Notes under the pieces: model-generated
What the model was told of the DNA's origin: nothing
Databases searched by the model: none
Seen by the model: only the letters and a program-made list of their open reading frames with translations
DNA from: Anaerolineae bacterium
GTDB lineage: Bacteria > Chloroflexota > Anaerolineae > UBA1429
Reading direction: 5' to 3'
NCBI GenBank assembly: GCA_007118555.1
Contig: SKRJ01000312.1
Span: 1-13,813 of the forward strand
Length of the DNA: 13,813 bases
Shown here: one piece after another, positions 1,931 to 13,085 of the stretch
Numbering within the stretch: position 1 is the first letter of the stretch
Layout of the letters: each line of letters opens with the position of its first letter
Translations under genes and position numbers: made by a program

Positions 1931-2440
1931 CTATGCCTCAGCCAGGCGAGGCGCGAGCCCCGTGGCCCAGTCGTCAATCGCCTGCCAGTCACGATGGTCG
2001 CCCTCCTGCGCGCGCATCAGCTTGAGCATGCCTCGCATCAGGAAGGACAGCCTGGCATAGTCCAGCTTGCCAGCAAAGATCGCCGTATCCACCGCACGGA
2101 GCCCCTCGGACTGCGTTGCCATATATGCCTCGAGCGTCTCTATTTGCTCTGGCTTGTCGTCATCGCAGGCCGACAAACACACGGCAAAGAGCGCTACAGG
2201 CATGTCCGCCAGCGCCTGGCGATGGGTGGACAGCCAGCTGGTCGCGGCAGGCAACCAGCGCCCGGCACGTATCGCGCTCCCCAACACCACCGCGTCATAG
2301 CCCGTGGGCGGGCCCGCGTCCTGCACCCGCATGACGGTTGTCTCCAGGCCCTGCGCGGCCAGCGTGTCGGCTATCGCCTCGGCGACCTCCTGGGTGGATC
2401 CGGCTCCCGTTGCATAGACGACCAATATCCGCTTGGTCAT
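1931..2440 (-). CDS. Flavodoxin domain protein, HemG-like (protoporphyrinogen oxidase-type)
   Basis: A 169-residue flavodoxin-fold protein. The N-terminal strand is followed by the FMN phosphate-binding loop YATGAGSTQEVA (residues 9-20). A GYDAVVLGSAIRAGRW segment then matches the flavin-binding loop of menaquinone-dependent protoporphyrinogen IX dehydrogenase (HemG, about 180 residues in E. coli). The motifs PVALFAVCLS and AGKLDYARLSFLMRGMLKLM also parallel HemG. HemG-type enzymes oxidise protoporphyrinogen IX to protoporphyrin IX in haem synthesis, but many related flavodoxins in this group have unproven roles, and no other haem gene is visible here. The ATG start has AAGGAG about 9 nt upstream. 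The gene begins 21 nt after the upstream lipoprotein and is followed 34 nt later by the small membrane protein. Confidence 0.88.
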   Translation of the reverse strand: MTKRILVVYATGAGSTQEVAEAIADTLAAQGLETTVMRVQDAGPPTGYDAVVLGSAIRAGRWLPAATSWLSTHRQALADMPVALFAVCLSACDDDKPEQIETLEAYMATQSEGLRAVDTAIFAGKLDYARLSFLMRGMLKLMRAQEGDHRDWQAIDDWATGLAPRLAEA

Positions 2441-2461
2441 GTTGCCTTCTCCTTGTGCAAA

Positions 2462-3202
2462 TCACTCTACGCAGAGTCCGTCCAGCGCCTTGTCGCGAAA
2501 GACGGGCCTGCGTCCCAACTCGGTGATCTCGCCATCGTTGCGCACGTGCAGATCCACCTCATAGGTCCAGTGGGGACCGCATCCGAACAAACGGAGATCG
2601 AACAGTGTCAGCCGATAGCCGTTGTAGACCTCGGTCACATGCGTATCCTCGATCCGATTCCCCTCGTACGCATAATCTGGGTGGCGCGCCAGCCCATAGC
2701 GTGCCTCGAGCCCGGTGGCGGCCAGGGCAAAGCTCAGGGCCTCCTCCGACGATTCGATGGGGGCATAGATCCCGCGCATGGCCTCGGCATCGGCAAGGAG
2801 CACGAACGCCCCATTCTTGTAGATTACATAGCGCACATAGATCGGCGTGGGGCCGGTGTGCTTGTAGACATAGTACTCTGATGCCTCCATGGCCCCCAGG
2901 CTGTGGGAAGATTCCTCCTCGTGCCAATCGGGATAGACGTCACACAGGGCGATGGGGAAACCCGGCTCCAGCCCGCCCAGCAGGTCGGGGGCGAGGCGCA
3001 TGGCGTCGCAACCCATCAGAGCGAACGGGCTTTCGGGCAAGCACCGTCGCAGGTCGTCCTGATCCACAGGGCAGCCGGCCGCCTCGAACGGCCCGTGATC
3101 CACAGTCAGGGTAGGCTGCGGGTGGTTGTCAAAGCGCGGCCCCAGCCTGCATCCGGCCAGCAGGGCTGCCATCACGAGCAACACCAGCGCTCGCGGGACC
3201 AT
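2462..3202 (-). CDS. Cysteine-rich lipoprotein, unknown function
   Basis: A 246-residue predicted lipoprotein and first gene of the minus-strand operon. It has a short hydrophobic signal segment (RALVLLVMAALLAGC) with a lipobox L-L-A-G-C, so Cys18 should be lipidated. The start ATG at 3202 is supported by the decamer GAGAGGAGAG four bases upstream; an in-frame ATG 21 bases upstream would place that sequence inside the gene. The mature protein has several cysteines (44, 54, 65, 87 and others near the C-terminus) consistent with disulfides in an extracytoplasmic protein. There is a Tyr-rich stretch (EYYVYKHTGPTPIYVRYVIY). No catalytic motif or named family is recognised. A candidate extended -10 promoter lies about 40 nt upstream. 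Confidence 0.78.
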   Translation of the reverse strand: MVPRALVLLVMAALLAGCRLGPRFDNHPQPTLTVDHGPFEAAGCPVDQDDLRRCLPESPFALMGCDAMRLAPDLLGGLEPGFPIALCDVYPDWHEEESSHSLGAMEASEYYVYKHTGPTPIYVRYVIYKNGAFVLLADAEAMRGIYAPIESSEEALSFALAATGLEARYGLARHPDYAYEGNRIEDTHVTEVYNGYRLTLFDLRLFGCGPHWTYEVDLHVRNDGEITELGRRPVFRDKALDGLCVE

Positions 3203-3206
3203 GCCA

Positions 3207-3216
3207 CTCTCCTCTC
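3207..3216 (-). promoter_or_regulatory. Ribosome-binding site of the cysteine-rich lipoprotein
   Basis: The minus strand reads GAGAGGAGAG, TGGC, ATG. It fixes the start at 3202 rather than at the ATG 21 nt further upstream. Confidence 0.65.
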
Positions 3217-3240
3217 GAGTCATGCTATCGCTTCGCCTGT

Positions 3241-3249
3241 ATTGTACCA
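3241..3249 (-). promoter_or_regulatory. Extended -10 promoter for the minus-strand lipoprotein operon
   Basis: The minus strand reads TGGTACAAT, an extended -10 element (TGn plus TACAAT, the hexamer at 3246-3241). It would start transcription near 3234 and give a leader of about 32 nt before the ATG at 3202. No good -35 hexamer is visible 17-18 nt upstream, which is tolerable for extended -10 promoters. It is divergent from the + strand promoter at 3323-3352. Confidence 0.5.
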
Positions 3250-3322
3250 TGATCTGCGCGCATAGCACCATACTCTGCCGGCGGCACAACCGACGGGCCC
3301 GCAAATTCAGGTTCTCCAGCGA

Positions 3323-3352
3323 TTGACATACAAGCACAAGACCCTGCATAAT
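3323..3352 (+). promoter_or_regulatory. Sigma70-type promoter for the delta-60 repeat gene
   Basis: A perfect -35 TTGACA (3323-3328), an 18-bp spacer and a -10 CATAAT (3347-3352) predict a start site near 3359. This leaves a leader of roughly 94 nt before the ATG at 3453. It is the best housekeeping-type promoter in the window. Confidence 0.65.
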
Positions 3353-3440
3353 GCGCCCCAACAGCAGTCCAGCCCATTTGGTGGCGTTGGACAGCGAACG
3401 TCCCTATCCGCCTGCCCAGTAGCCGACTGGCTCGTTGTCA

Positions 3441-3446
3441 AGGAGG
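3441..3446 (+). promoter_or_regulatory. Strong ribosome-binding site of the delta-60 repeat gene
   Basis: AGGAGG lies six bases before ATG 3453 but is directly abutted by ATG 3447. Normal spacing therefore selects 3453 as the start. Confidence 0.75.
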
Positions 3447-3452
3447 ATGACC

Positions 3453-4922
3453 ATGGTGCACCGGCGCGCTCTTATGATGGGGTTCCGCTGCTTGCTGGCT
3501 ACCGCACTGCTTCTGGGGGCGTTGGGCATGGGTGCGCCCTCGCTGGCCGACCCACCGGCCGGTTGGATGATCGACGCCCTTGATCCGCATCCCGACAGCC
3601 ATGTGGAGACCATTGTGGTGCAGCCCGATGGCAAGATCCTGATGGGCGGCTTTTTCGGGATGGTGGGTGACGTGTCTCTCCCCAGGCTTGCGCGGCTCAA
3701 CCCCGATGGTTCCCTCGATGATGCCTTTGATCCTCCTGCACCCCAAGATAGAGTGCGCGCTCTGGCCCTCGATGGGGATGGCAGAATCATCGTGGCAGCA
3801 AAGATTACCGATGCGGACTATATCGCGCGTCTGCATCAGGATGGTAGCCTGGACGACACCTTTGCCCCGGGCGCCGATGATATTGTCTTTGCGCTGGCAA
3901 TGCAGCCCGACGGCAAGATCGTCGTCGGCGGCCGTTTTACCACCATTGGCGGCCTTGCGCGTACCCATGTGGCCCGTCTGCATCCCGATGGCACGCCGGA
4001 CGAGTCGTTCAACGCGGTGCTGGATGGTGAGGTGTATGCTGTAGTCCTCCAGCCTGACGGAAAGCTTCTGATAGGTGGCCCCTTTGACACGGTGAATGGC
4101 GTGGCGCGGAGCGGCCTGGCTCGGCTGCATCCCGACGGCACCCTGGACGAGACCTTGGCGGTGGATGCCGATGGTCCGGTCTTTGTGGTCGGCCTGCATC
4201 CCAATGGCCGCATCTTGCTCGGCGGATCCTTTGGCAGCGTCAATGGTGAGCCCCGGCGGCATTTCGCGCGCCTGTCACCCCAGGGAGCAGTCGATGATCT
4301 TGACCCGGGCTTTGGGCTTACCGGGCAGGTACACGCCATCGTCTCCGATGCCGACGGTCGCATCATCCTGGGGGGACTGTTCTCCTGGCTGCCAGTGGGG
4401 GCCACGGACCACCTGGCCAATCTCGCCATCATCGATACCGACGGCGATCTGGTAGCCGATCCTACCCTGCACGTCAACGGTTTCGTCATAGCGCTGGCGT
4501 TGCAGGCGGATGGGTCGCTGCTGATAGGTGGGCAATTTTCCGAGATAGGCCGCCAGGCGCAGCGTTGGTGCATGGGGCGGCTCACGAACCCCACCCCGGC
4601 CGTGCAGAGCCTGGACCATGACGCGGCCACCCGCAGCGCCACCTGGCACCGTTCTGGCGCCAGCCCCGAGGTGTGGCGCGCCACTCTCGAACTCTCCACA
4701 GATGGTGTTACCTACACCTCCCTGGGCGAGGGCGTCCGCGTCGACAGGGGCTGGGCCTGGGAGGATCTTGCTCTGCCGCCCGGGCAAGACCTCTGGTTGC
4801 GGGCCCGGGGCTACCATACCACGGGAGGTCGCAACGCCTCGATCTCGGTCGTCGAGACAATCGCCGAGCTCCCTGCGGGTCCGGTTCTGGTTCTCCACCA
4901 TCTCCCGATTGCTCTGCGCTAG
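3453..4922 (+). CDS. Secreted delta-60 repeat (beta-propeller-like) protein
   Basis: A 489-residue secreted protein. It has a signal peptide (basic start, hydrophobic core, likely cleavage after SLA near residue 32). Seven consecutive repeats of about 44-52 residues follow, starting near residues 51, 101, 145, 194, 243, 293 and 345. Each follows the delta-60 pattern: V-x-A-x-x-x-Q-P-D-G-K-I-L-x-G-G-x-F, then ARL-x-P-D-G-x-x-D-x-x-F. Seven units would suit a closed seven-bladed propeller (inference). Residues 381-489 look like a beta-sandwich or fibronectin-like domain (LELSTDGVTYTSL, LWLRARGYHTTGGRN) and finish with HHLPIALR, resembling the L-P-x-x-x-R endings I have seen on extracellular proteins of Chloroflexota. 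Members of this repeat family are extracellular; no ligand is known for this one. The gene has its own promoter and no obvious terminator. Confidence 0.9.
   Translation: MVHRRALMMGFRCLLATALLLGALGMGAPSLADPPAGWMIDALDPHPDSHVETIVVQPDGKILMGGFFGMVGDVSLPRLARLNPDGSLDDAFDPPAPQDRVRALALDGDGRIIVAAKITDADYIARLHQDGSLDDTFAPGADDIVFALAMQPDGKIVVGGRFTTIGGLARTHVARLHPDGTPDESFNAVLDGEVYAVVLQPDGKLLIGGPFDTVNGVARSGLARLHPDGTLDETLAVDADGPVFVVGLHPNGRILLGGSFGSVNGEPRRHFARLSPQGAVDDLDPGFGLTGQVHAIVSDADGRIILGGLFSWLPVGATDHLANLAIIDTDGDLVADPTLHVNGFVIALALQADGSLLIGGQFSEIGRQAQRWCMGRLTNPTPAVQSLDHDAATRSATWHRSGASPEVWRATLELSTDGVTYTSLGEGVRVDRGWAWEDLALPPGQDLWLRARGYHTTGGRNASISVVETIAELPAGPVLVLHHLPIALR
3603..4592 (+). repeat. Seven degenerate coding repeats (delta-60 units)
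   Basis: About 150-bp coding units repeat seven times within the delta-60 gene. Each contains a segment coding Q-P-D-G-K followed about 60 bp later by one coding ARL-x-P-D-G. The repetition is clear in protein and visible in DNA (for example the stretches beginning near 3622, 3904 and 4051), but the copies have diverged substantially, which argues against recent expansion. Confidence 0.8.
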
Positions 4923-4935
4923 AGCCCCATTTCGG

Positions 4936-4964
4936 TTTGCACGTTCGCGAGAACGCGCTACAAT
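4936..4964 (+). promoter_or_regulatory. Promoter of the B12-riboswitch operon
   Basis: TTTGCA (4936-4941), a 17-bp spacer and TACAAT (4959-4964) predict transcription from near 4971, just upstream of the riboswitch aptamer. That location fits a leader RNA starting with the aptamer. The spacer contains a perfect inverted repeat CGTTC-GCGA-GAACG (4942-4955), a possible operator. Confidence 0.6.
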
Positions 4965-4984
4965 AGCTGCACAATCGAACAGTC

Positions 4985-5100
4985 CGGTCGTGGTGCCCTG
5001 CAGGCCCGGATGCCCAGGGCGAAGAGCGAAGCCGGTGCGAGTCCGGCGCTGTCCCGCAACTGTGAGCGATCCCGTATCGCAAGCCAGGTCGACTGCCACG
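4985..5100 (+). promoter_or_regulatory. Cobalamin (adenosylcobalamin-type) riboswitch aptamer
   Basis: The segment carries the conserved B12-box core GCCGGTGCGAGTCCGGC followed by GCTGTCCCGCAACTGTGA (5031-5065) and then AAGCCAGG (5081-5088), diagnostic of the cobalamin riboswitch family (Rfam RF00174). Visible helices support it: closing CGTGG (4989-4993) with CCACG (5096-5100); GCCCTG (4995-5000) with CAGGGC (5015-5020); GCCGG with CCGGC around the TGCGAGT loop; and GCGAT (5066-5070) with ATCGC (5076-5080). Family members bind B12 in the nascent mRNA and usually switch off downstream B12 uptake or synthesis genes. It sits between the promoter at 4936-4964 and the transcobalamin-like gene at 5274, so cobalamin-repressed expression of that operon is the natural inference. 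Confidence 0.95.
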
Positions 5101-5102
5101 TA

Positions 5103-5228
5103 CCGTACGCGCTACAGCCAGACCTTCGAGCGAAGGGTCGGCGCGTTGCTTGCTGGCACCACCTCTGCGGTTGGTGCGCCCTACACGCCGAGCCCGAGCC
5201 GGCGTGTTTCCTGTTGTCCCGCGTACGG
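5103..5228 (+). promoter_or_regulatory. Structured leader between aptamer and expression platform
   Basis: A 9-bp long-range complement, CCGTACGCG (5103-5111) with CGCGTACGG (5220-5228), would enclose three local hairpins. These are GACCTTCG/CGAAGG(G)TC at 5121-5139, GCACCA/TGGTGC at 5156-5177, and ACACGCCG/CGGCGTGT at 5183-5207. The last is followed by a weak T-rich stretch (TTTCCTGTTGT), so it could instead act as an attenuator. The segment has no plausible gene. It may simply position the platform, or be a further regulatory structure. Confidence 0.5.
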
Positions 5229-5231
5229 CCA

Positions 5232-5269
5232 CGTGCTCCGCCCGAGCTTGCCCAGGAAAAAGGAGCACG
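5232..5269 (+). promoter_or_regulatory. Shine-Dalgarno-sequestering hairpin (riboswitch expression platform)
   Basis: CGTGCTCC (5232-5239) is perfectly complementary to GGAGCACG (5262-5269), which contains the GGAG of the ribosome-binding site located 8 nt before the ATG at 5274. With a 22-nt loop, this 8-bp helix would block translation initiation, the usual OFF state of translational cobalamin riboswitches. Confidence 0.65.
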
Positions 5270-5273
5270 CCCC

Positions 5274-6584
5274 ATGTCGTCCCCGTTGTCATCCGTCTAC
5301 CGCCCATCCAAGCTCCGTATACTCGGTATGCTCCTGGCGCTCCTGCTGTTGAGCGTCTTGGGAGCCGCCTGCCAGCGCGGCACGCCGGCCGAATCCGCGG
5401 TCTCGGCCCATGTCGTAGTGCAGTTTGCCGATGGCGCCACCCACATCCGGCCCGTCGCCTGGTCCGGCGAGATGACCCGTGTGCAGGCCCTGGAGCAGGC
5501 GGGCTATGACGTCGTGTCGGATGAGGCCGGCGAGGCCATCTGCAGCATCGAGGGGTACGGCTGCCCCGCGACCGACTGTTTCTGCCCCGACAACCTCTGG
5601 GCCCAGGGGCAGTGGGAGGAGGACGGTTGGGATACCGATGCCTGGCCTCCCCCCGCTGTGGTCGAGGGCGATGTACTGGCCTTTCGCCTCGGGGCGCAGC
5701 CCGACTACTCCGACTGGGGCCTCTCGGGGCGCCTGCTGGAGGCGCCCAACTATGTGGCGGCCTACGGGGCCCTGGACTGGCTGCGCGGCCAGCAGGAGGA
5801 GGACGGCGGCTATGATGATGGCTTTGACGCGATCGGCGCCACCGTGCGCTCGCTACTGGCCGTGGGCGCCGCGGGTCTCGATCCCGATGCCTGGGGCGAG
5901 CCCAGCCTGAGCGCCTACCTGACCCAAGCTGAGGCCGAGAGCACCCGGGCCTATGCCCAGGGATCGGCCGCTGCCGCCGGCAAGCTGGCCATCGCCGCGC
6001 AGTGGGCCGGCATCGAACCCACGGATCTGGCGGGGCTCGACCTGGCGGACGAGATCGCGGCCACGTTCGATGCCGATACCGGTGCCTATGGCGGCGGCAG
6101 CGGCGATGCAGCGTGGGCCGTGCTGGGGCTCTATGCCCTCGAGCAGCCCATCCCACAGGAGGTGATTGCCTTTTTCGTCGAGGCGCAGCAAGAGGACGGC
6201 GGTTGGTCGTGGAACGAGCTCCAGAGCGAGAGCGAGATTCAGCACACGGCCATCGTCGTACAGGCCCTGCTCGCGGCCGGAGAGTCGCGGGATAGCGCCG
6301 CTCTATCCAGCGCCATGAGTCTTGTGCGCGATGCGGCCAATCCCGATGGCGGCTACCCCTACCAGATCTCGGGCGACAGCGATCTGGGCACCACGGCGGC
6401 CGTGATACAGGCGCTGATTGGCATGGGCCATCAAGAGACCGACGGCCAGGCGTTGTACGATGCGCTTGCCTATCTGCGGAACATGCAGCAAGAGGACGGC
6501 AGCCTGGAGGCGTGGTCGCCCCTGTACGCTACCCAAGAGGCCATCCCGGCCCTCATTGGGCGCACGCTGGGGCCGCGGCCTTGA
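5274..6584 (+). CDS. B12-riboswitch-controlled lipoprotein: DUF4430-like domain plus alpha/alpha-toroid (transcobalamin-like)
   Basis: A 436-residue lipoprotein with hydrophobic segment LGMLLALLLLSVLGAAC and Cys33 as lipid site. Residues 46-140 form a DUF4430-like beta module: an RVQALEQAGYDV segment, the cysteine cluster C-S-I-x3-G-C-P-A-T-D-C-F-C (90-104), Trp-rich stretch, and terminal GDVLAFRLG. Residues 158-436 form a prenyltransferase/squalene-oxidase-like alpha-toroid with repeats keyed by QQEEDGGYDD (173-182), GAYGGGSGDAAW, QQEDGGWSW (305-313), NPDGGY and QQEDGS. Intrinsic factor and transcobalamin combine the same two fold types (alpha barrel first, beta domain second); here the order is inverted. 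The cobalamin riboswitch upstream makes a corrinoid-binding surface protein the best inference; binding is not shown. AGGAG lies 8 nt before the ATG and can be masked by the leader hairpin. The next gene starts 8 nt after the stop. Confidence 0.87.
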   Translation: MSSPLSSVYRPSKLRILGMLLALLLLSVLGAACQRGTPAESAVSAHVVVQFADGATHIRPVAWSGEMTRVQALEQAGYDVVSDEAGEAICSIEGYGCPATDCFCPDNLWAQGQWEEDGWDTDAWPPPAVVEGDVLAFRLGAQPDYSDWGLSGRLLEAPNYVAAYGALDWLRGQQEEDGGYDDGFDAIGATVRSLLAVGAAGLDPDAWGEPSLSAYLTQAEAESTRAYAQGSAAAAGKLAIAAQWAGIEPTDLAGLDLADEIAATFDADTGAYGGGSGDAAWAVLGLYALEQPIPQEVIAFFVEAQQEDGGWSWNELQSESEIQHTAIVVQALLAAGESRDSAALSSAMSLVRDAANPDGGYPYQISGDSDLGTTAAVIQALIGMGHQETDGQALYDALAYLRNMQQEDGSLEAWSPLYATQEAIPALIGRTLGPRP

Positions 6585-6592
6585 GACTCGCC

Positions 6593-7198
6593 ATGATACG
6601 ACGCTCTCTCTGGCTGTTGCTGCTCATCACGGCGGCGTTGGCGCTGGCGCCGGTGCGATCCGTCGTTGGCCAGTCGCCCGTGCAGGTGGGGGTCGTCGTG
6701 CAGGAGGGGGCGGACTCGGTGGCGACCTACTGCGTCACTCTGACAGAGCCCGAGCCCACCGGATATGATGCGCTGGTCGCCACCGGGTTGCCGATTGTGG
6801 CGGCCATCTCGGCGCAGGGCTTGGGTGTGTGCCAGATTGGTGATACGGGCTGTCCCGCCAGCAACTGCTTTTGCCAGTGTCAGGGGGCCACGTGCAACTA
6901 CTGGGCTTACGCCTACCTGCGCGATGGCGCCTGGTTGACGTCCAACGTGGGCGCAGGGGCGCGGCAGGTGAGCCATGGCGATGTGGAGGGTTGGCGGTGG
7001 GGCCCGGGCGATCCGCCGCCTCTCTTTTCCTTTGCGCAGATCTGTACCGAGGGCGCACCGCCGTCCTCGGTAGCAGAGCCAGAGGCCCCTGACCGGCCGA
7101 CCGTGCCGCCGGGGCGCCAGGCCGCCTTTGTCGCTATCGCTATCGCCGTGGGCGCCGGGGGCCTGGCCATTGCGGCCAGCGCGAACAAGCGCTCCTAG
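6593..7198 (+). CDS. Membrane-anchored DUF4430-like protein, second gene of the B12-riboswitch operon
   Basis: A 201-residue protein with signal peptide (MIRRSLWLLLLITAALALAP, probable cleavage near residue 26), one DUF4430-like domain, a Pro-rich linker and a C-terminal transmembrane anchor (residues about 176-196) ending in NKRS. The domain repeats the hallmarks of its neighbour: C-Q-I-x3-G-C-P-A-S-N-C-F-C (80-94), two more cysteines (96, 101), a YWAYAYLRDGAW strand and HGDVEGWRWG. DUF4430 is the family of the transcobalamin C-terminal domain. The gene starts 8 nt after the preceding stop with only a weak ribosome-binding site, so translational coupling is likely and the riboswitch should control both. 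I infer a partner presenting or accepting corrinoid at the membrane; a redox or metal-binding role for the cysteines is an alternative. It ends in a CTAG shared with the opposing gene. Confidence 0.82.
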   Translation: MIRRSLWLLLLITAALALAPVRSVVGQSPVQVGVVVQEGADSVATYCVTLTEPEPTGYDALVATGLPIVAAISAQGLGVCQIGDTGCPASNCFCQCQGATCNYWAYAYLRDGAWLTSNVGAGARQVSHGDVEGWRWGPGDPPPLFSFAQICTEGAPPSSVAEPEAPDRPTVPPGRQAAFVAIAIAVGAGGLAIAASANKRS

Positions 7199-8673
7199 CG
7201 AAAGGTCGCGTCGGCGGGCATGCCCGGCTTGAGGCGGCCATCGACATTGTCCAGGGCGATCGTGACGGCAAACACCATGTTGACCCGTTCCTCCCGCGTC
7301 TCGACGTTGCCGGGGGTGAACTCGGCCCGCGAGGCGATCTGCGACACCCGCCCGTAAAAGACATCGGGATAGGCGTCCACCGTAACCTCGACCTCCTGGT
7401 TGAGGGACACTCGCCCCAGATCGGGCTGCGGCACATATACCGTCAGTGTCAGGTTCCTCAGATCCGCGAGGACCAACAACGGCGCCCCTGGTGAGGCAAG
7501 CTCGCCCACATGGGCTACGGATCGCAGGATCTCGCCGCGGATCGGCGCTCGCAACGACAGCATGTCGAGCTGGACCTCGGCTGTGCGCACCATGGATTCG
7601 GCGTTCTGCAGGCTGGCCTGCGCCCGTAGCACTTGGGCCTCTTGCATGGTTAGCTCCTCGGAACGAGCGCCCTCCAGCAGCATATCGAGGGACGCCTGGG
7701 ATTGCTCCTGCTGCGCCATCGCCGCATCAACCTGCGCCCGGGCCGTATCAATGTCCGCCTCGGCGATGCTCAGCGCGGCGCGGGCGCCCGCCGCCTGCGC
7801 GTCGGCGATCTCGATGCGGGCGCGGGCACCATCGACGCCCGCTGCTGCGGCGTCTGTCTGCGCCGCCAGGCTCGCCAGATCCTCCTCGCGCAGGCCTTGA
7901 CGCACCCGCCACAGCTCCACCTCGGCGACGGTCACCGCTTCCTCCAGGGCCTGCACACGTGCATTCTCCAGATCGCACAGGCCTCTGTCGCGGGCTAGGT
8001 CCAGACCGCATGCGGCATCGCGGGTATTCTGCCGGCCCCAGAGCTCGTTCTTGACCCTCTCCAGGTTGTGTTCCGCAATGGCGATTTCTTCGGGCGTGGC
8101 GCCCCTTTCCCCTTTGGTCTGGGCGGCGCGGGCCATGGCCAGCTCTGCCTCGGCGCCCCGCAGCCCCGCACGGGCCGTGGTGCTCTGTCCCTCCGCGGCC
8201 GTGGCCTCGGCCGCGGCCGCGTCACGACGGCCCTCGGCCACCCGCAACTGGCTCTCGGCCAGGGCCACGTTGGCCTCTGCCGCTGCGACAGCGCCCCGTG
8301 CCGCGTCGATCTCCCTCCCGCGAGCTCCTGCCTGGGCCAATTCCAGTTGCGCCTCGGCGGCCTTCAGAGCGCCGGTGGCCTCGAGCACCGCGGCTTTGGC
8401 CTGCGCGTGCTGCTCCTGCATCAGACGATCGTCCAGGGCCACAAGCAGATCGTCTTCCTCAACGGTCTCGCCTTCTTCCACCGTAATCTCGACGATGCGT
8501 GCGCTCATCTCGGCGGCCAGCACCACCTCGGTTGCCTCGATGATGCCCGAGAGCTCCATGGGCGAGTTCCGGGCGGCGCGTGGCATGGCATCGACCCTCT
8601 CTCCGCAGCCCAGCGCCGTGCCCCATGCGATCAGGACCGCCAAAAGAATCGACAGATCTCTTTTCGTGCTCAT
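7195..8673 (-). CDS. HlyD/YbhG-type membrane fusion (adaptor) lipoprotein
   Basis: A 492-residue adaptor subunit of the ABC exporter. The N-terminal hydrophobic segment ends T-A-L-G-C, so Cys23 may be lipidated. A biotinyl-lipoyl-like half-motif (residues 42-82, IVEITVEEGETVEEDDLLVALDD) is followed by an exceptionally long Ala/Glu/Arg-rich coiled coil (about 85-370). The second lipoyl half (LRAPIRGEILRSVAHVGELA) and beta-barrel/membrane-proximal domains follow. AEFTPGNVETREERVNMVF near 450-468 closely resembles the corresponding part of E. coli YbhG (332 residues), so the extra length is in the coiled coil. Cys222 and Cys233 flank a probable hairpin tip. Last gene of the five-gene operon; its ATG overlaps the upstream ATPase stop as ATGA, with GAGGAG 6 nt before. 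Confidence 0.92.
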   Translation of the reverse strand: MSTKRDLSILLAVLIAWGTALGCGERVDAMPRAARNSPMELSGIIEATEVVLAAEMSARIVEITVEEGETVEEDDLLVALDDRLMQEQHAQAKAAVLEATGALKAAEAQLELAQAGARGREIDAARGAVAAAEANVALAESQLRVAEGRRDAAAAEATAAEGQSTTARAGLRGAEAELAMARAAQTKGERGATPEEIAIAEHNLERVKNELWGRQNTRDAACGLDLARDRGLCDLENARVQALEEAVTVAEVELWRVRQGLREEDLASLAAQTDAAAAGVDGARARIEIADAQAAGARAALSIAEADIDTARAQVDAAMAQQEQSQASLDMLLEGARSEELTMQEAQVLRAQASLQNAESMVRTAEVQLDMLSLRAPIRGEILRSVAHVGELASPGAPLLVLADLRNLTLTVYVPQPDLGRVSLNQEVEVTVDAYPDVFYGRVSQIASRAEFTPGNVETREERVNMVFAVTIALDNVDGRLKPGMPADATFR

Positions 8674-9632
8674 TCGCGCTCCTCATCACCGCATCTCTGC
8701 ACGCTGGCGATGAATACATCCTCCAGCGATGGCGTGATCTCCTCCAGCCTCACGATCTCGATCCCCTCTTGCGCCAGGGTGGTCTCGATCTGGTCGCGGG
8801 CTTGTTCCGGGTCTTGGGCCACCACATGGATTTGGGCCCCATAGAGGGCCACCTCCTCAAAGGCCCCCGTCTTGCGCAAGGCTTGGATCGCCCTGTCAGG
8901 GGCGTCGCAACTCAGCTCCAGGACATGCCCCTGCATATGCTCATCCTTAATGTCGCGGGGCGTGCCCAGGGCGATCATCCTGCCACGCTGTATGAACCCG
9001 AGTCGATGGCACTGCTCGGCCTCGTCCATATAGTGTGTCGTGACAAATACCGTGCGTCCCTGATCCGAGAACCGGTACAGGAGGTCCCAAAAGGCGCGTC
9101 GCGCCACCGGATCGACGCCGGCCGTGGGCTCGTCGAGAAAGAGCACCTCGGGCTGATGCATGATGGCGCAGCCCAGGGCCAGGCGCTGGCGCGACCCTCC
9201 CGAGAGGGTGTTCGTTGGCTCTTGCTCGCGGCCCTCCAACTCGGCCATCTCCAACACCGAGGCCACATTTCTCTCCAGATTCTCGTCTCTTACGCCATAG
9301 ATGCCGCCAAAAAAGGCCAGGTTCTCGGCCACGCTGAGATCGTTGTACAGGCTGAATCGCTGCGACATGTACCCGATCCGTCTGCGTATCTCGCGCCTCT
9401 GGCGGGCTACATCATAGCCCAGGACGGTGGCCGCACCCGATGTGGGCTTGAGCAAGGCCAGCAACATGCGCATCGTCGTGGTCTTGCCAGCGCCATTGGG
9501 GCCCAGCAAGCCAAAGATCTCACCGCGCGGCACCTCAAAGGAGACGTCGTCCACCGCAACGAAACGCCCAAAGGTTTTGGAAAGACCCTTGGCCGCCACG
9601 GCTGGCCCGCCATTCGACCGATGGCCGGTCAT
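8670..9632 (-). CDS. ABC transporter ATPase, second half of a split YbhF-type pair
   Basis: A 320-residue cytoplasmic nucleotide-binding subunit. Motifs: Walker A GPNGAGKT (44-51), Q-loop GYMSQ (87-91), signature LSGGS (143-147, final Gln replaced), Walker B VLFLDE (163-168), D-loop AGVDP, and H-switch TTHYMDEAEQC with His200 present. The C-terminal about 90 residues are the usual extension of ABC-2/DrrA-like ATPases. The set GPNGAGK plus TTHxMDEAE matches the second nucleotide-binding domain of E. coli YbhF. This is probably the catalytically competent site of a heterodimer with the upstream ATPase. The start ATG overlaps the upstream stop by ATGA with little independent ribosome-binding sequence, and the stop overlaps the adaptor start the same way. 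Confidence 0.95.
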   Translation of the reverse strand: MTGHRSNGGPAVAAKGLSKTFGRFVAVDDVSFEVPRGEIFGLLGPNGAGKTTTMRMLLALLKPTSGAATVLGYDVARQRREIRRRIGYMSQRFSLYNDLSVAENLAFFGGIYGVRDENLERNVASVLEMAELEGREQEPTNTLSGGSRQRLALGCAIMHQPEVLFLDEPTAGVDPVARRAFWDLLYRFSDQGRTVFVTTHYMDEAEQCHRLGFIQRGRMIALGTPRDIKDEHMQGHVLELSCDAPDRAIQALRKTGAFEEVALYGAQIHVVAQDPEQARDQIETTLAQEGIEIVRLEEITPSLEDVFIASVQRCGDEERE

Positions 9633-10648
9633 CCCTCGCCGTCCGGTTCTATGTGACGGTCCCCATGATTGTCACGCATCATCTGTGGCGCGCTGGTATC
9701 CTGGGATCCATACTGTCGTTGGATCAAGCTGACAAAGGCCTCCTCCATGCGAATCGGCGCCGGGCGAATATCGCGAATCTCGATGCTGGCCTCGTCAAAC
9801 GCCTCTTGGATGCGGGGCAGGGCGGCATCGGCATCCTTCACGAGGACGCGCACCTGATCCCCATAGGGCTGCACCTCCTCTATCCACTCCATATCCTCCA
9901 GGGCGTGTCTCGCCTCAAAGAGCGACTCGGGCCACACCACCAGGAGCTCCCAAGACACAGAGCCCTTGATCTCGACCGGGGTATCGCAGGCCAAGAGGCG
10001 GCCTTGAAACATGAGCCCCACGCGAGAGCAGCGTTCCGCCTCATCCATATAGGGCGTGGACACCACCATCGTGACGCCCTGGCTGTGCAGCTCGCTCAGC
10101 ATATCCCAGAACTCGCGCCGCGACACAGGATCGACGCCCGTGGTGGGTTCATCGAGCAGGAGCAGATCGGGCTCGTGAATCAGTGCGCATGCCAGGGCCA
10201 GCTTTTTTTGCATGCCGCCCGACAGTTGCCCTGCCAGGCGCTCCCGAAACTCGGTCAGGCCGGCAAAGCCGAGCAGCCGCTCGTTGCGCTCGGCACGCTC
10301 CTTGCCGCGTACGCCTCGCACATCCCCATAAAAGCGCAGATTCTCCTGAACGGTCAGATCGGCATAGAGCGTAAATCGCTGAGCCATATAGCCGAGGCGC
10401 CCATGGATGCGGCCCGGATGCCGCATCGCATCGTGGTCAAACACCCTGACGCTGCCCACGGTCGGCTTGACCAGGCCCGTCAACAGTCGCAGCGTCGTGG
10501 TCTTGCCGGCGCCATCGGGGCCGACGAGGCCCAGAATCTCGCCCCGCCGCACCTGGAGATCGAGCCCATCGACGGCCACCGTGTCGCCAAACCGTCGCTC
10601 CAGATCGCTGGCCTCGATGATCAACTCCTCGGATGTTGGTTCTTGCAA
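9629..10648 (-). CDS. ABC transporter ATPase, first half of a split YbhF-type pair (H-loop His missing)
   Basis: A 339-residue ATPase counted from TTG 10648. Motifs: Walker A GPDGAGKT (43-50), Q-loop GYMAQ, signature LSGGM (142-146), Walker B LLLLDE (162-167), TTGVDP D-loop. The H-switch reads STPYMDEAERC, with Pro199 where the catalytic His normally sits. E. coli YbhF, a fused double-ATPase, also has GPDGAGK and a His-less ST-x-Y-x-DEAE in its first half, so this degeneracy is ancestral rather than a mutation here. The start is uncertain: no ATG or GTG exists in frame between the permease stop and the conserved domain. TTG 10648 precedes it by a plausible length but has only a weak purine-rich sequence upstream; TTG 10624 abuts an AGGAG. 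A candidate internal promoter precedes it. Confidence 0.93.
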   Translation of the reverse strand: MQEPTSEELIIEASDLERRFGDTVAVDGLDLQVRRGEILGLVGPDGAGKTTTLRLLTGLVKPTVGSVRVFDHDAMRHPGRIHGRLGYMAQRFTLYADLTVQENLRFYGDVRGVRGKERAERNERLLGFAGLTEFRERLAGQLSGGMQKKLALACALIHEPDLLLLDEPTTGVDPVSRREFWDMLSELHSQGVTMVVSTPYMDEAERCSRVGLMFQGRLLACDTPVEIKGSVSWELLVVWPESLFEARHALEDMEWIEEVQPYGDQVRVLVKDADAALPRIQEAFDEASIEIRDIRPAPIRMEEAFVSLIQRQYGSQDTSAPQMMRDNHGDRHIEPDGEG

Positions 10649-10700
10649 CTCGTGCTCATTTCTATCAACATGCTTGGTGCTCAGCCTGTATTCTATGTCA

Positions 10701-10709
10701 AGTATAGCA
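10701..10709 (-). promoter_or_regulatory. Candidate internal promoter before the first ATPase gene
   Basis: The minus strand reads TGCTATACT, an extended -10 (TGn plus TATACT at 10706-10701), with predicted start near 10694. It lies in the only sizeable gap (about 83 nt) of the exporter operon. No convincing -35 is present. Confidence 0.35.
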
Positions 10710-10731
10710 CATGCGCCGACCGCATCTGTGT

Positions 10732-11853
10732 CTATTGCAGCCGCTGTCGTAGCGAAATGACGCCCAACGTCCAGAAGACGACATTCAGCGCCACCAGGGC
10801 CCCAATCGGCACCAGATTGTCGACGAACCCACCCCCGCGCAGCAGAATGCTTCTTACCAGCACCAAATAGTGCCGCAGCGGCAGCAGCTCCGAGATCCAG
10901 GACAGGAACCCCGGCAGGTTCTCCACGGGCACGACATAGCCGCAAAAGGCCATGTCGAACAGAATCTGCACAAAGATGAGCTGGGTGGCCTGCTGCTGTC
11001 GGCGGACTCGCGACGAGAGGAACAGGCCCCAGGCGCTCTGCGCCAGGATGAACAGCAGCGCGGTGCCAAACAGCAACAGCACCGACCCACGGGCAGGCAG
11101 ATCCCAGATCCAGCGCGCTGCCGCAAAAAGCGCCCAGAAGTTGATGATCCCTACCAGGAGCGGCGGCAGCATCTTGCCCACGATCAACTCGAGGCGGGCC
11201 AGCGGCGTCACCAGCAACTGCTCCAGGGTGCCCGTCTCTGCCTCGCGCACGATGCTCAGCCCCGCCACCATCAGCACCACCTGATAGAGCAGGAATCCCA
11301 GTTGCGGTGCCAGGCGGCCCTGCAAGGCGGTGATCTCGAAATAGCGGGTGGGGCGCACCTCGATGCTCTGTGCGTCTGTCTGTGTGGTCCCCAGCGCACG
11401 AATGGCTCCCGAGGCTGTGCCCAGCAGCCGTATCGCGACAAAGGTATTGCTGGCATCCACCACGAGCAACACCTCGGCGGGCCGTACGCCTTCCCGGAGC
11501 AGACGCCCATAGTCGGGTGGAATCACGACCAGACCCTGCACCAGCCCCTCAAAGAGGGCGCGGTCGCCATCGGCCAGCCGGTCGATCCGCGCATGAACCA
11601 CGATCTCACGGGTATTCTCCAACGCCTGTGCGATGCGCCGCGATTGGGCGCTCCGGTCATGGTCCACCACGATGACCCGGTCGGCAGGTCGTGTTTCGCC
11701 CCCCGCGACGCTGACGACCATGCCCAGCAGCATCAGAGGCACGATGATCAGCAGGCCCGCAAAGATCTTGTCGCTGCGCAACTGCCAGAGCTCTTTTGTA
11801 GCCAGCGTCCGGATGCGGTGGAACATGCTCCCATCCATGCCTCTGTCGCTCAT
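10732..11853 (-). CDS. ABC-2 type permease (YbhS/YbhR-like), second of pair
   Basis: A 373-residue integral membrane subunit of the exporter. Transmembrane segment 1 (about 31-51, FAGLLIIVPLMLLGMVVSVA) is followed by a large extracytoplasmic domain of about 130-140 residues (RPADRVIVVDHDRSAQSRRI through TRYFEITALQG). About five more helices are grouped at the C-terminus. The motif REAETGTLEQLLVTPLARLELIVGKMLPP is the coupling-helix region typical of ABC2_membrane_3 (PF12698) proteins. The start ATG at 11853 overlaps the preceding permease stop as ATGA, with AGAGGG about 5 nt upstream. Upstream in-frame starts would intrude into that gene. It pairs with the next permease to form the heterodimeric channel. 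Confidence 0.93.
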   Translation of the reverse strand: MSDRGMDGSMFHRIRTLATKELWQLRSDKIFAGLLIIVPLMLLGMVVSVAGGETRPADRVIVVDHDRSAQSRRIAQALENTREIVVHARIDRLADGDRALFEGLVQGLVVIPPDYGRLLREGVRPAEVLLVVDASNTFVAIRLLGTASGAIRALGTTQTDAQSIEVRPTRYFEITALQGRLAPQLGFLLYQVVLMVAGLSIVREAETGTLEQLLVTPLARLELIVGKMLPPLLVGIINFWALFAAARWIWDLPARGSVLLLFGTALLFILAQSAWGLFLSSRVRRQQQATQLIFVQILFDMAFCGYVVPVENLPGFLSWISELLPLRHYLVLVRSILLRGGGFVDNLVPIGALVALNVVFWTLGVISLRQRLQ

Positions 11854-12959
11854 GCCACCCTCTTTTTGGCCAGCAAGAGACTGGCCAGCAGCGTGGCGGC
11901 GGCGATCCACAGCAGGTTGACAAGGCCTGCGCCCAGCGCCGAGAGTTGGGCGCCCTTGAGGAACAGCGAACGGTTCATGTCGACATAGTTCGCTGCGGGC
12001 AGCACCCGTACCAGGATCCGCTCCGCCAGACTTCCCGGCTCCAGGGGGATCAGCAGGCCGGACAAAAAGAACGAAGGCACGAAAAAGATCAGCACGATGA
12101 TAATGATCGTCAGGCGCTGGCTGTTAGCCGTCGACCCAATGAGGATGCCGATCCCCATGAGAGAGAGCATGAACGCCGAGGCCACCACCGTGAAATCAGC
12201 GAGCGAGCCGCGAAAGGGGACGCCAAACCACCAGAGAGCCGTCGCCCAGGCCAACAGGGTTCCAACCACGCCCAGCACCAGATAAGGCACCAGCTTGCCC
12301 AAGAGATACTCGATAGGGCGAATCGGCGTGGACAAGAGCCCCTCATAGCTGCCCTGCTCGGTCTCTCGGGCGCAGGCCAGGGCCACAGCGATGGCGGGAA
12401 AGGTAAAGGCCAATGCCATCAGCCCGGGGGTCATGGCATCGATCCAACTCATGGGCAGGTTGTACAGGGGGCGTGTATGCACCACGATCGGCGGCGGCCG
12501 TTGGGCCGTGGTGCCCTGTGTCGCAGCCCATGCCATGGTGCGCTGCTCGATATTCTGCAGATAGGTTTCGGCTTTGTGATAGTCGGAGCCGTCGAGCACG
12601 ATTTGAATCGCCGCGCTGCGTCCTGCCGTCAAATCCGCGTGGAACCCTGGCGGAACGACCACCACAACGCCCACTGCGCCCCGTTGCAGCAGCGCCAGGG
12701 TCTCGGCATAGCTGCCGGGATAGGCGACGACCAGCACCTCGTCATCAGAGGTGAGCGTGTGGACATAACGGCGCGAGCTGGGACTGTGGTCCTGATCCAT
12801 AACGCCGATGCGGACCTGCTGCAGGTCCGCTGCAAAGGTGTAGGTGAGCAGGAACAGGACAAAAGCCGGCGCCACCAGAACCATGAACAGAATCTGATAG
12901 TCGCGCCTGATGTGGGCGAGTTCCTTGCGGATCAGCGCCCATGTGCGCCTGAAGGACAT
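11850..12959 (-). CDS. ABC-2 type permease (YbhS/YbhR-like), first of pair
   Basis: A 369-residue membrane permease and first gene of the exporter operon. Transmembrane segment 1 (about 22-43, QILFMVLVAPAFVLFLLTYT) leads to a large outside domain (VRIGVMDQDHSPSSRRYV, LDGSDYHKAETYLQNIE). Five C-terminal helices follow, with coupling motif ARETEQGSYEGLLSTPIRP and the conserved VPSFFLSGLLIPLE segment. This is the ABC2_membrane_3 architecture and is strongly reminiscent of YbhS. I chose ATG 12959 (SFRRTWALIRKEL is a normal amino-terminus for the family), with GAGG six bases upstream; an in-frame ATG at 13025 lacks a ribosome-binding site. The substrate is unknown: relatives are proposed to export drugs, lipids or other hydrophobic compounds. 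Confidence 0.93.
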   Translation of the reverse strand: MSFRRTWALIRKELAHIRRDYQILFMVLVAPAFVLFLLTYTFAADLQQVRIGVMDQDHSPSSRRYVHTLTSDDEVLVVAYPGSYAETLALLQRGAVGVVVVVPPGFHADLTAGRSAAIQIVLDGSDYHKAETYLQNIEQRTMAWAATQGTTAQRPPPIVVHTRPLYNLPMSWIDAMTPGLMALAFTFPAIAVALACARETEQGSYEGLLSTPIRPIEYLLGKLVPYLVLGVVGTLLAWATALWWFGVPFRGSLADFTVVASAFMLSLMGIGILIGSTANSQRLTIIIIVLIFFVPSFFLSGLLIPLEPGSLAERILVRVLPAANYVDMNRSLFLKGAQLSALGAGLVNLLWIAAATLLASLLLAKKRVA

Positions 12960-13085
12960 CTCTAACCTCAGCCAAAACGATTCTATCGCTGCCGCACGGG
13001 TAGGATCGCTCTCACGCGGTTGCATTCGCCGCAGTGTGGATCATCAGAGCCACGGCCCGCCGGGGTCATCTTGACGGGTGGTACC

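Follow-up and report, generated by a model that had tools for sequence, protein, structure and literature searches.

The 13,813-nucleotide stretch analyzed here (the window; contig SKRJ01000312.1 of an Anaerolineae bacterium, phylum Chloroflexota) carries a cobalamin riboswitch followed by two open reading frames, ORF1 and ORF2, for surface proteins whose predicted domain folds resemble those of the animal vitamin B12 carriers. In all probability, this operon serves the bacterium to catch B12. We consider it likely that the riboswitch-controlled pair captures corrinoids at the cell surface and feeds an energy-coupling factor (ECF) importer with a CbrT-like S component. When internal B12 is plentiful, the riboswitch would shut the operon off; when B12 is scarce, the operon would be made. 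ORF1, which joins a beta domain to a toroid, and ORF2, a beta domain held on a membrane stalk, would then catch a corrinoid at the surface, clamp it between toroid and beta domain in transcobalamin fashion, and hand it to an importer (EcfT, a double EcfA, and the S component) whose genes would lie elsewhere in the genome. A preliminary description, made from the DNA letters, had proposed B12 capture, and overall the proposal is supported: the riboswitch, the fold matches, and the linkage of homologues all came out positive, and from these we infer corrinoid binding, along with the clamp geometry, the hand-over, and repression by B12.

Riboswitch, operon, and encoded proteins

The features of the locus, all on the plus strand, are as follows.

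4936..4964, + strand: sigma-70-like promoter match, TTTGCA-17-TACAAT, weak (9 of 12 positions)
4974..5114, + strand: cobalamin riboswitch aptamer, RF00174 (covariance model, 65.2 bits; gathering cutoff, 31.5)
5115..5273, + strand: leader, presumed expression platform (from sequence)
5260-5265, + strand: AAGGAG Shine-Dalgarno-like site preceding the ORF1 ATG at 5274
5274..6584, + strand: ORF1, 436 amino acids; secreted SLBB/DUF4430-like beta domain plus alpha/alpha toroid; probable lipoprotein
5400..5693, + strand: ORF1 N-terminal beta-grasp domain with GCPATDCFC motif (about residues 43-140)
5739..6563, + strand: ORF1 alpha/alpha toroid (about residues 156-430)
6593..7198, + strand: ORF2, 201 amino acids; membrane-anchored SLBB/DUF4430-like protein
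6671..7012, + strand: ORF2 beta-grasp domain (about residues 27-140), predicted transcobalamin beta-domain fold, Cys-rich
7118..7189, + strand: ORF2 C-terminal transmembrane helix (residues 176-199)

The aptamer named in the preliminary description was confirmed by the Rfam search, which matched the complete model (positions 1-189; E = 1.7 × 10−14) and found no other RF00174 aptamer in this genome (2.6 Mb, 78%-complete). The promoter proposed ahead of it is present, albeit as a weak match; sites of that quality occur twice in 4700-7400, where 0.3 would be expected. The predicted fold of the leader was no more stable than that of shuffled sequences (z = 0.6), a result uninformative for the mode of switching. 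ORF1 and ORF2 lie on the same strand with a gap of 8 bases. Downstream of ORF2 the genes (HlyD-type adaptor, ABC exporter genes) are on the opposite strand, so the operon stops with ORF2.

ORF1 consists of a hydrophobic leader with a lipobox-like LGAAC, then the beta domain, then the toroid; ORF2 has a leader, a beta domain of the same type, and a C-terminal helix (176-199). The two beta domains are homologous (positions 13-135 of the A3 profile match ORF2, E = 1.1 × 10−16; BLASTP, 6 × 10−6). Candidates for the lipid and membrane anchors predicted earlier are both visible in this pair, and a C-terminal hydrophobic segment recurs in 35 of 37 ORF2-family members; a lipobox-like site appears in only 7 of the 46 rows of the ORF1-family alignment, even by a loose pattern, so a lipid anchor is not general.

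Comparison of predicted structures matched both folds to the B12 carriers, as had been proposed: specifically for the ORF2 beta domain, and as one among many toroids for ORF1. The ORF2 beta domain also matched 3u7z, which we take to be a DUF4430 protein, without a PF14478 sequence match, and kinship of the ORF1 and ORF2 domains with DUF4430 appears to be visible in structure alone. In the ORF2 model a helix (57-62) is followed by two strands (68-73 and 76-82), which might correspond to the beta-hairpin insert that follows the helix in transcobalamin-like SLBB domains.

Riboswitch linkage and ECF genes in relatives

We surveyed relatives in two sets: 47 named loci encoding an ORF2 relative and 151 genomes of the phylum, 41 of which match the ORF1 family and 27 strongly (E < 10−30, a limit chosen after the list was seen). 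Genomes in both sets are related and some are in both (L041 corresponds to G136), so the counts are not independent. The expectation that homologues would mostly be riboswitch-controlled was borne out. A cobalamin or adenosylcobalamin riboswitch was present in 38 of the 47 named loci (36/45 in the main scan, plus L048 and L045). Of 39 such riboswitches, 35 precede the first ORF for a toroid or beta domain by no more than 333 bases (called starts may be too early). Likewise, RF00174 or RF01482 lay directly upstream of a toroid gene in 21 of the 27 strong-toroid genomes, the window's own genome included; 17 of these came from the matches listed in the phylum survey, which used stricter filters, and four (G088, G052, G150, and G146) from direct locus checks. 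Some RF00174 match occurs in 135 of the 151 genomes, mostly one to three in each, making adjacency to the toroid by chance unlikely.

The toroid stands alone in its gene in most of the 27 genomes, with a match from the N-terminal domain onward only in the window's genome (G000) and in G128. A separate beta-domain match was found in 19, of which 17 have it within 1 kb of the toroid (about 3 kb away in G146, on another contig in G043). A split transcobalamin is therefore the usual form, the window carrying an additional fused beta domain. Long ORF1 relatives of about 730 to 917 amino acids were also observed (P0065, P0067, and P0069; L018:943-3696; L004:2435-4651), and in the aligned ones, P0065, P0067, and P0069, the beta domain is followed by two or more toroid-like stretches. 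Most ORF2-type domains carry the database label PF28005.1, which did not reappear with a local Pfam copy. One Chloroflexaceae contig (L037) holds two cobalamin riboswitch matches 1.5 kb apart (884-1040 and 2544-2671, the second just over the cutoff); a beta-domain gene that stands alone follows at a distance of over 7 kb. In P0093 (345 amino acids) and P0096 (400 amino acids; a named Chloroflexi protein), the ORF2-type beta domain is fused to a BtuF-type Peripla_BP_2 domain, and PF01497 was also recovered in one member of the alignment containing P0093. These fusions suggest that B12-type importers of the other class have co-opted the same domain.

Gene neighborhoods were compared across 75 loci plus the window (76 sources). 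They contain EcfT (PF02361 in both representatives tested), a double EcfA (TIGR04520 in L018, 385.8 bits against a cutoff of 315), and a membrane protein of 280 amino acids found in 36/76 sources and 29/47 named loci. Representatives of the membrane protein had no family match at stricter limits; at E ≤ 1, 20 of 24 family members matched PF12822 (best, 1.1 × 10−14). The best Protein Data Bank (PDB) match of its profile was the 182-residue membrane chain of 6FNP (E = 6.7 × 10−9), taken as CbrT by size; 6FNP is the structure entry for ECF-CbrT, a vitamin B12 transporter (PMC5997447). The protein therefore looks like a CbrT-like ECF S component. It was found in 34 of the 151 phylum genomes: 25 of the 27 with a strong toroid versus 9 of the 124 others, and in none of the 14 ORF1-family genomes with short matches (4.6 × 10−11 to 1.3 × 10−16). 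In 8 of those 9 genomes, RF00174 lies about 2.7 to 2.9 kb upstream of the S gene on the same strand. In 16/25 genomes, the S gene and the toroid lie on different contigs or over 10 kb apart, an arrangement that would also apply to the window's genome, although contig ends may hide some linkage.

Other neighbor clusters were represented by CobS, CobT, CobU, CbiR, BtuR, and a PF01923 adenosyltransferase, each in at least 2 to 7 of the 76 sources; these counts are lower bounds, as clustering needs BLAST similarity. Linkage with riboswitches, ECF genes, and corrinoid-salvage genes is thus conserved among relatives. The salvage genes raise the possibility, which we consider rather unlikely, that the main cargo of the pair is not cobalamin itself but corrinoids that are incomplete or foreign (cobinamide, other cobamides), destined for salvage and remodeling. 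The riboswitch-led locus L027 would fit, since CbiR (cobamide remodeling), CobU, CobT, and CobS stand there beside toroid, beta-domain, and ECF genes (CbiR and CobU at L027:13242-14638), as would the transport of cobinamide by ECF-CbrT noted in the available text of PMC5997447. However, such genes were found in few of the 76 sources (CobS-type in 7, CobT-type in 3, CbiR-type and CobU-type in 2 each, again as lower bounds), and none was recognized in the window.

The candidate importer in the same genome and the weight of the evidence

The preliminary description had left the importer as either ECF or BtuFCD type, encoded outside the window. The ECF half stands, with EcfT and EcfA in the same genome and the CbrT-like S component in relatives; the BtuFCD half does not, PF01497 and PF01032 being undetected in this genome with controls positive in 13 of 14 genomes. 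The genome has two genes for EcfT. The first (contig C78, locus L110; 1339-2433) precedes a double EcfA (2430-3864) that is truncated where the contig ends, and the two are 48% and 58% identical, respectively, to riboswitch-linked genes of L018. A second ECF set (contig C39, locus L109), comprising EcfT, two ATPases, and an S-like gene of its own, was considered as partner and rejected, its EcfT being only distantly similar to riboswitch-linked EcfTs. In G151, the genome behind L002, a P-type-ATPase-like gene, EcfT, and EcfA precede S at the contig end (L115), these three standing in the same order as in the window's genome; in G152, of the same family and taken as the same genome as G136, the order is riboswitch, BtuR, EcfT, EcfA, S (L117). 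The window's genome also has two B12-binding-domain matches over the cutoff and no CbiC match in its 78%-complete assembly; allowing for that incompleteness, this fits an organism that uses corrinoids but does not make them.

Several observations weigh against capture feeding an ECF importer. No CbrT-like S component was found in the window's genome, which we read as an effect of the contig end (the contig stops inside EcfA), and no riboswitch was found near its EcfT and EcfA genes. The S profile was built from toroid and beta-domain loci, and five of the 27 genomes supplied 5 of its 24 rows; toroid-S co-occurrence is therefore not fully independent, and overlap was favored. Nine of the 47 named loci showed no riboswitch (L003, L014, L017, L023, L028, L033, L035, L042, and L047); in L003, L017, L033, L035, and L047, the operon seems to run off the contig start. 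No riboswitch was found near the toroid gene in 6 of the 27 genomes (G118, G126, G094, G138, G128, and G057; in G094 only some 70 bases separate the gene start from a contig end). Five genomes (G061, G102, G034, G078, and G110) have a second toroid copy with no adjoining riboswitch among the matches listed. CbiC is present in 7 of the 27 toroid genomes versus 15 of the 124 others, showing no enrichment for loss of B12 synthesis, so auxotrophy as support was not borne out. At the level of sequence, PF14478 (DUF4430) did not match ORF1, ORF2, or any of the 37 ORF2-family members at E ≤ 1; PF01122 (Pfam HMM) did not match ORF1 at E ≤ 1, with a weak match below the cutoff on the homologue P0065 (E = 0.0063); and the ORF2-family profile found no match among PDB sequences apart from two chance ones (E = 0.29 and 0.30). 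Transcobalamin kinship by sequence was thus not recovered, and it rests on predicted structure. The DUF4430-like domains and the toroid of the preliminary description hold as predicted beta-grasp and alpha/alpha folds and fail as matches to these families. Finally, the toroid fold is promiscuous: the closest structural matches of the ORF1 toroid are terpene cyclases, and many toroids match better than transcobalamin, so we rejected the toroid alone as a sign of B12.

The last point invites the view that ORF1 is an extracellular enzyme, with a terpene-cyclase or glycosidase-like toroid and a gene that is B12-regulated by happenstance. We regard this as highly improbable. Class II terpene cyclases such as squalene-hopene cyclase carry a catalytic DxDD motif; none of the 46 aligned ORF1-family sequences has it in the toroid, and the single DxDD in the alignment (P0012, at 116) falls outside the toroid. 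In addition, ORF1 has a secretion leader and is accompanied by a transcobalamin-type beta domain and, among relatives, by ECF and corrinoid genes. There is a similarly slight chance that the proteins are structural or adhesive, bind no small ligand, and are linked to the riboswitch incidentally. Surface anchors are present, toroid and beta-grasp domains serve other roles too, and a reviewer's comment in the consulted portion of PMC1796856 cautioned that B12 need not be the sole ligand. Nevertheless, the riboswitch link recurs (21/27 genomes and 38/47 loci), S co-occurs in 25/27 genomes, and the beta domain has been fused to BtuF. Comparison with the closest named relative (L002) speaks against this view as well: ORF1 is 75.0% identical (differences at codon positions 1/2/3, 0.142/0.126/0.436) and ORF2 65.0% identical (0.244/0.208/0.396), a pattern indicative of purifying selection on both.

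The window also holds other genes. A Delta-60 repeat beta-propeller protein is encoded just upstream of the riboswitch (3435-4922, + strand), a position kept in L002. The minus strand beyond ORF2 (7195-13025) encodes a HlyD-type adaptor, two ABC ATPases, and two ABC-2 permeases, like a split RbbA-type exporter and ordinary; a frame at 1931-2440 (− strand) resembles, by eye, a flavodoxin-type protein.

Relation to known B12 capture and import systems

The novelty of the capture idea was overstated in the preliminary description, the general idea having been in print since 2007 (PMC1796856). In the portion of that paper available, Burroughs et al. reported bacterial proteins that join an SLBB domain and a toroid, in one order or the other, and that are frequently accompanied by a further SLBB protein and by CbiO/CbiQ; they predicted a role in scavenging B12. 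Neither "chloroflex" nor "riboswitch" occurs in that text. ORF2 resembles their transcobalamin-like SLBB clade in that its modeled beta-grasp fold is close to the transcobalamin C-terminal domain. Riboswitch control, the CbrT-like S component, the Cys-rich SLBB domain, the SLBB-BtuF fusion, and the detachment of the operon from the ECF genes are added here. The operon is, in our assessment, a well-supported variant of the capture system predicted in 2007.

Animal transcobalamin, haptocorrin, and intrinsic factor have toroid then beta domain in one chain, whereas ORF1 has the reverse order and is accompanied by an extra, separate beta protein with a membrane helix; no sequence similarity to the animal carriers was detected. 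Among actinobacterial families, ORF1 matches SCO2321_fam (NF053823; E = 1.8 × 10−12) and ORF2 matches SCO2322_fam (NF040672; E = 0.004), both far under the curated NCBIfam cutoffs (46.9 of 300 bits and 17.5 of 85, respectively). The actinobacterial loci L045 and L048 combine a riboswitch, ORF1/ORF2-type genes, and S/ATPase-type genes, as in the Chloroflexota system. BtuF/BtuCD shares B12 import and the SLBB-BtuF fusions of P0093 and P0096, whereas its families PF01497 and PF01032 went undetected in the window's genome. The available text of Sun et al. 2013 (PMC3766115), a study covering 5 Chloroflexi genomes, mentions B12 transport under riboswitch regulation and does not name these proteins.

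ECF-CbrT (Santos et al. 2018, PMC5997447) is alike in that the S profile matches the 6FNP chain and EcfT and EcfA are present. In contrast, the importer here is accompanied by dedicated extracellular capture proteins, none being described for CbrT in the consulted part of that paper (which mentions a cbrS gene beside cbrT without its product), and EcfA here is a double ATPase of about 550 amino acids.

The S component is usually described as the binding protein of ECF systems. We tentatively suggest, as a possibility with somewhat less than even support, an ECF importer with extracellular binding proteins of its own: a surface transcobalamin-like clamp, often split into toroid and beta-domain chains and here detached from the ECF genes, would load a CbrT-like S component, and the Chloroflexota Cys cluster might be a cobalt ligand or redox site. 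In BtuM, a cysteine can ligate cobalt during uptake (PMC6072759, text available in part), so the conserved Cys cluster is worth testing; by analogy, a cobalt-contacting role is speculation. No experimental test of such proteins was found in the literature searched, which excluded subscription journals and preprints.

Many bacteria need B12 from outside. If the capture reading is true, some members of a phylum widespread in the environment capture corrinoids with fold relatives of the animal B12 carriers, and this capture feeds an ECF importer rather than BtuFCD. With the riboswitch, the S component, and the binding proteins all named, the computational prediction of 2007 becomes directly testable, and the finding bears on the origin of the animal carriers. 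An ECF importer equipped with capture proteins would combine two modes of import in one architecture and give those carriers a bacterial counterpart.
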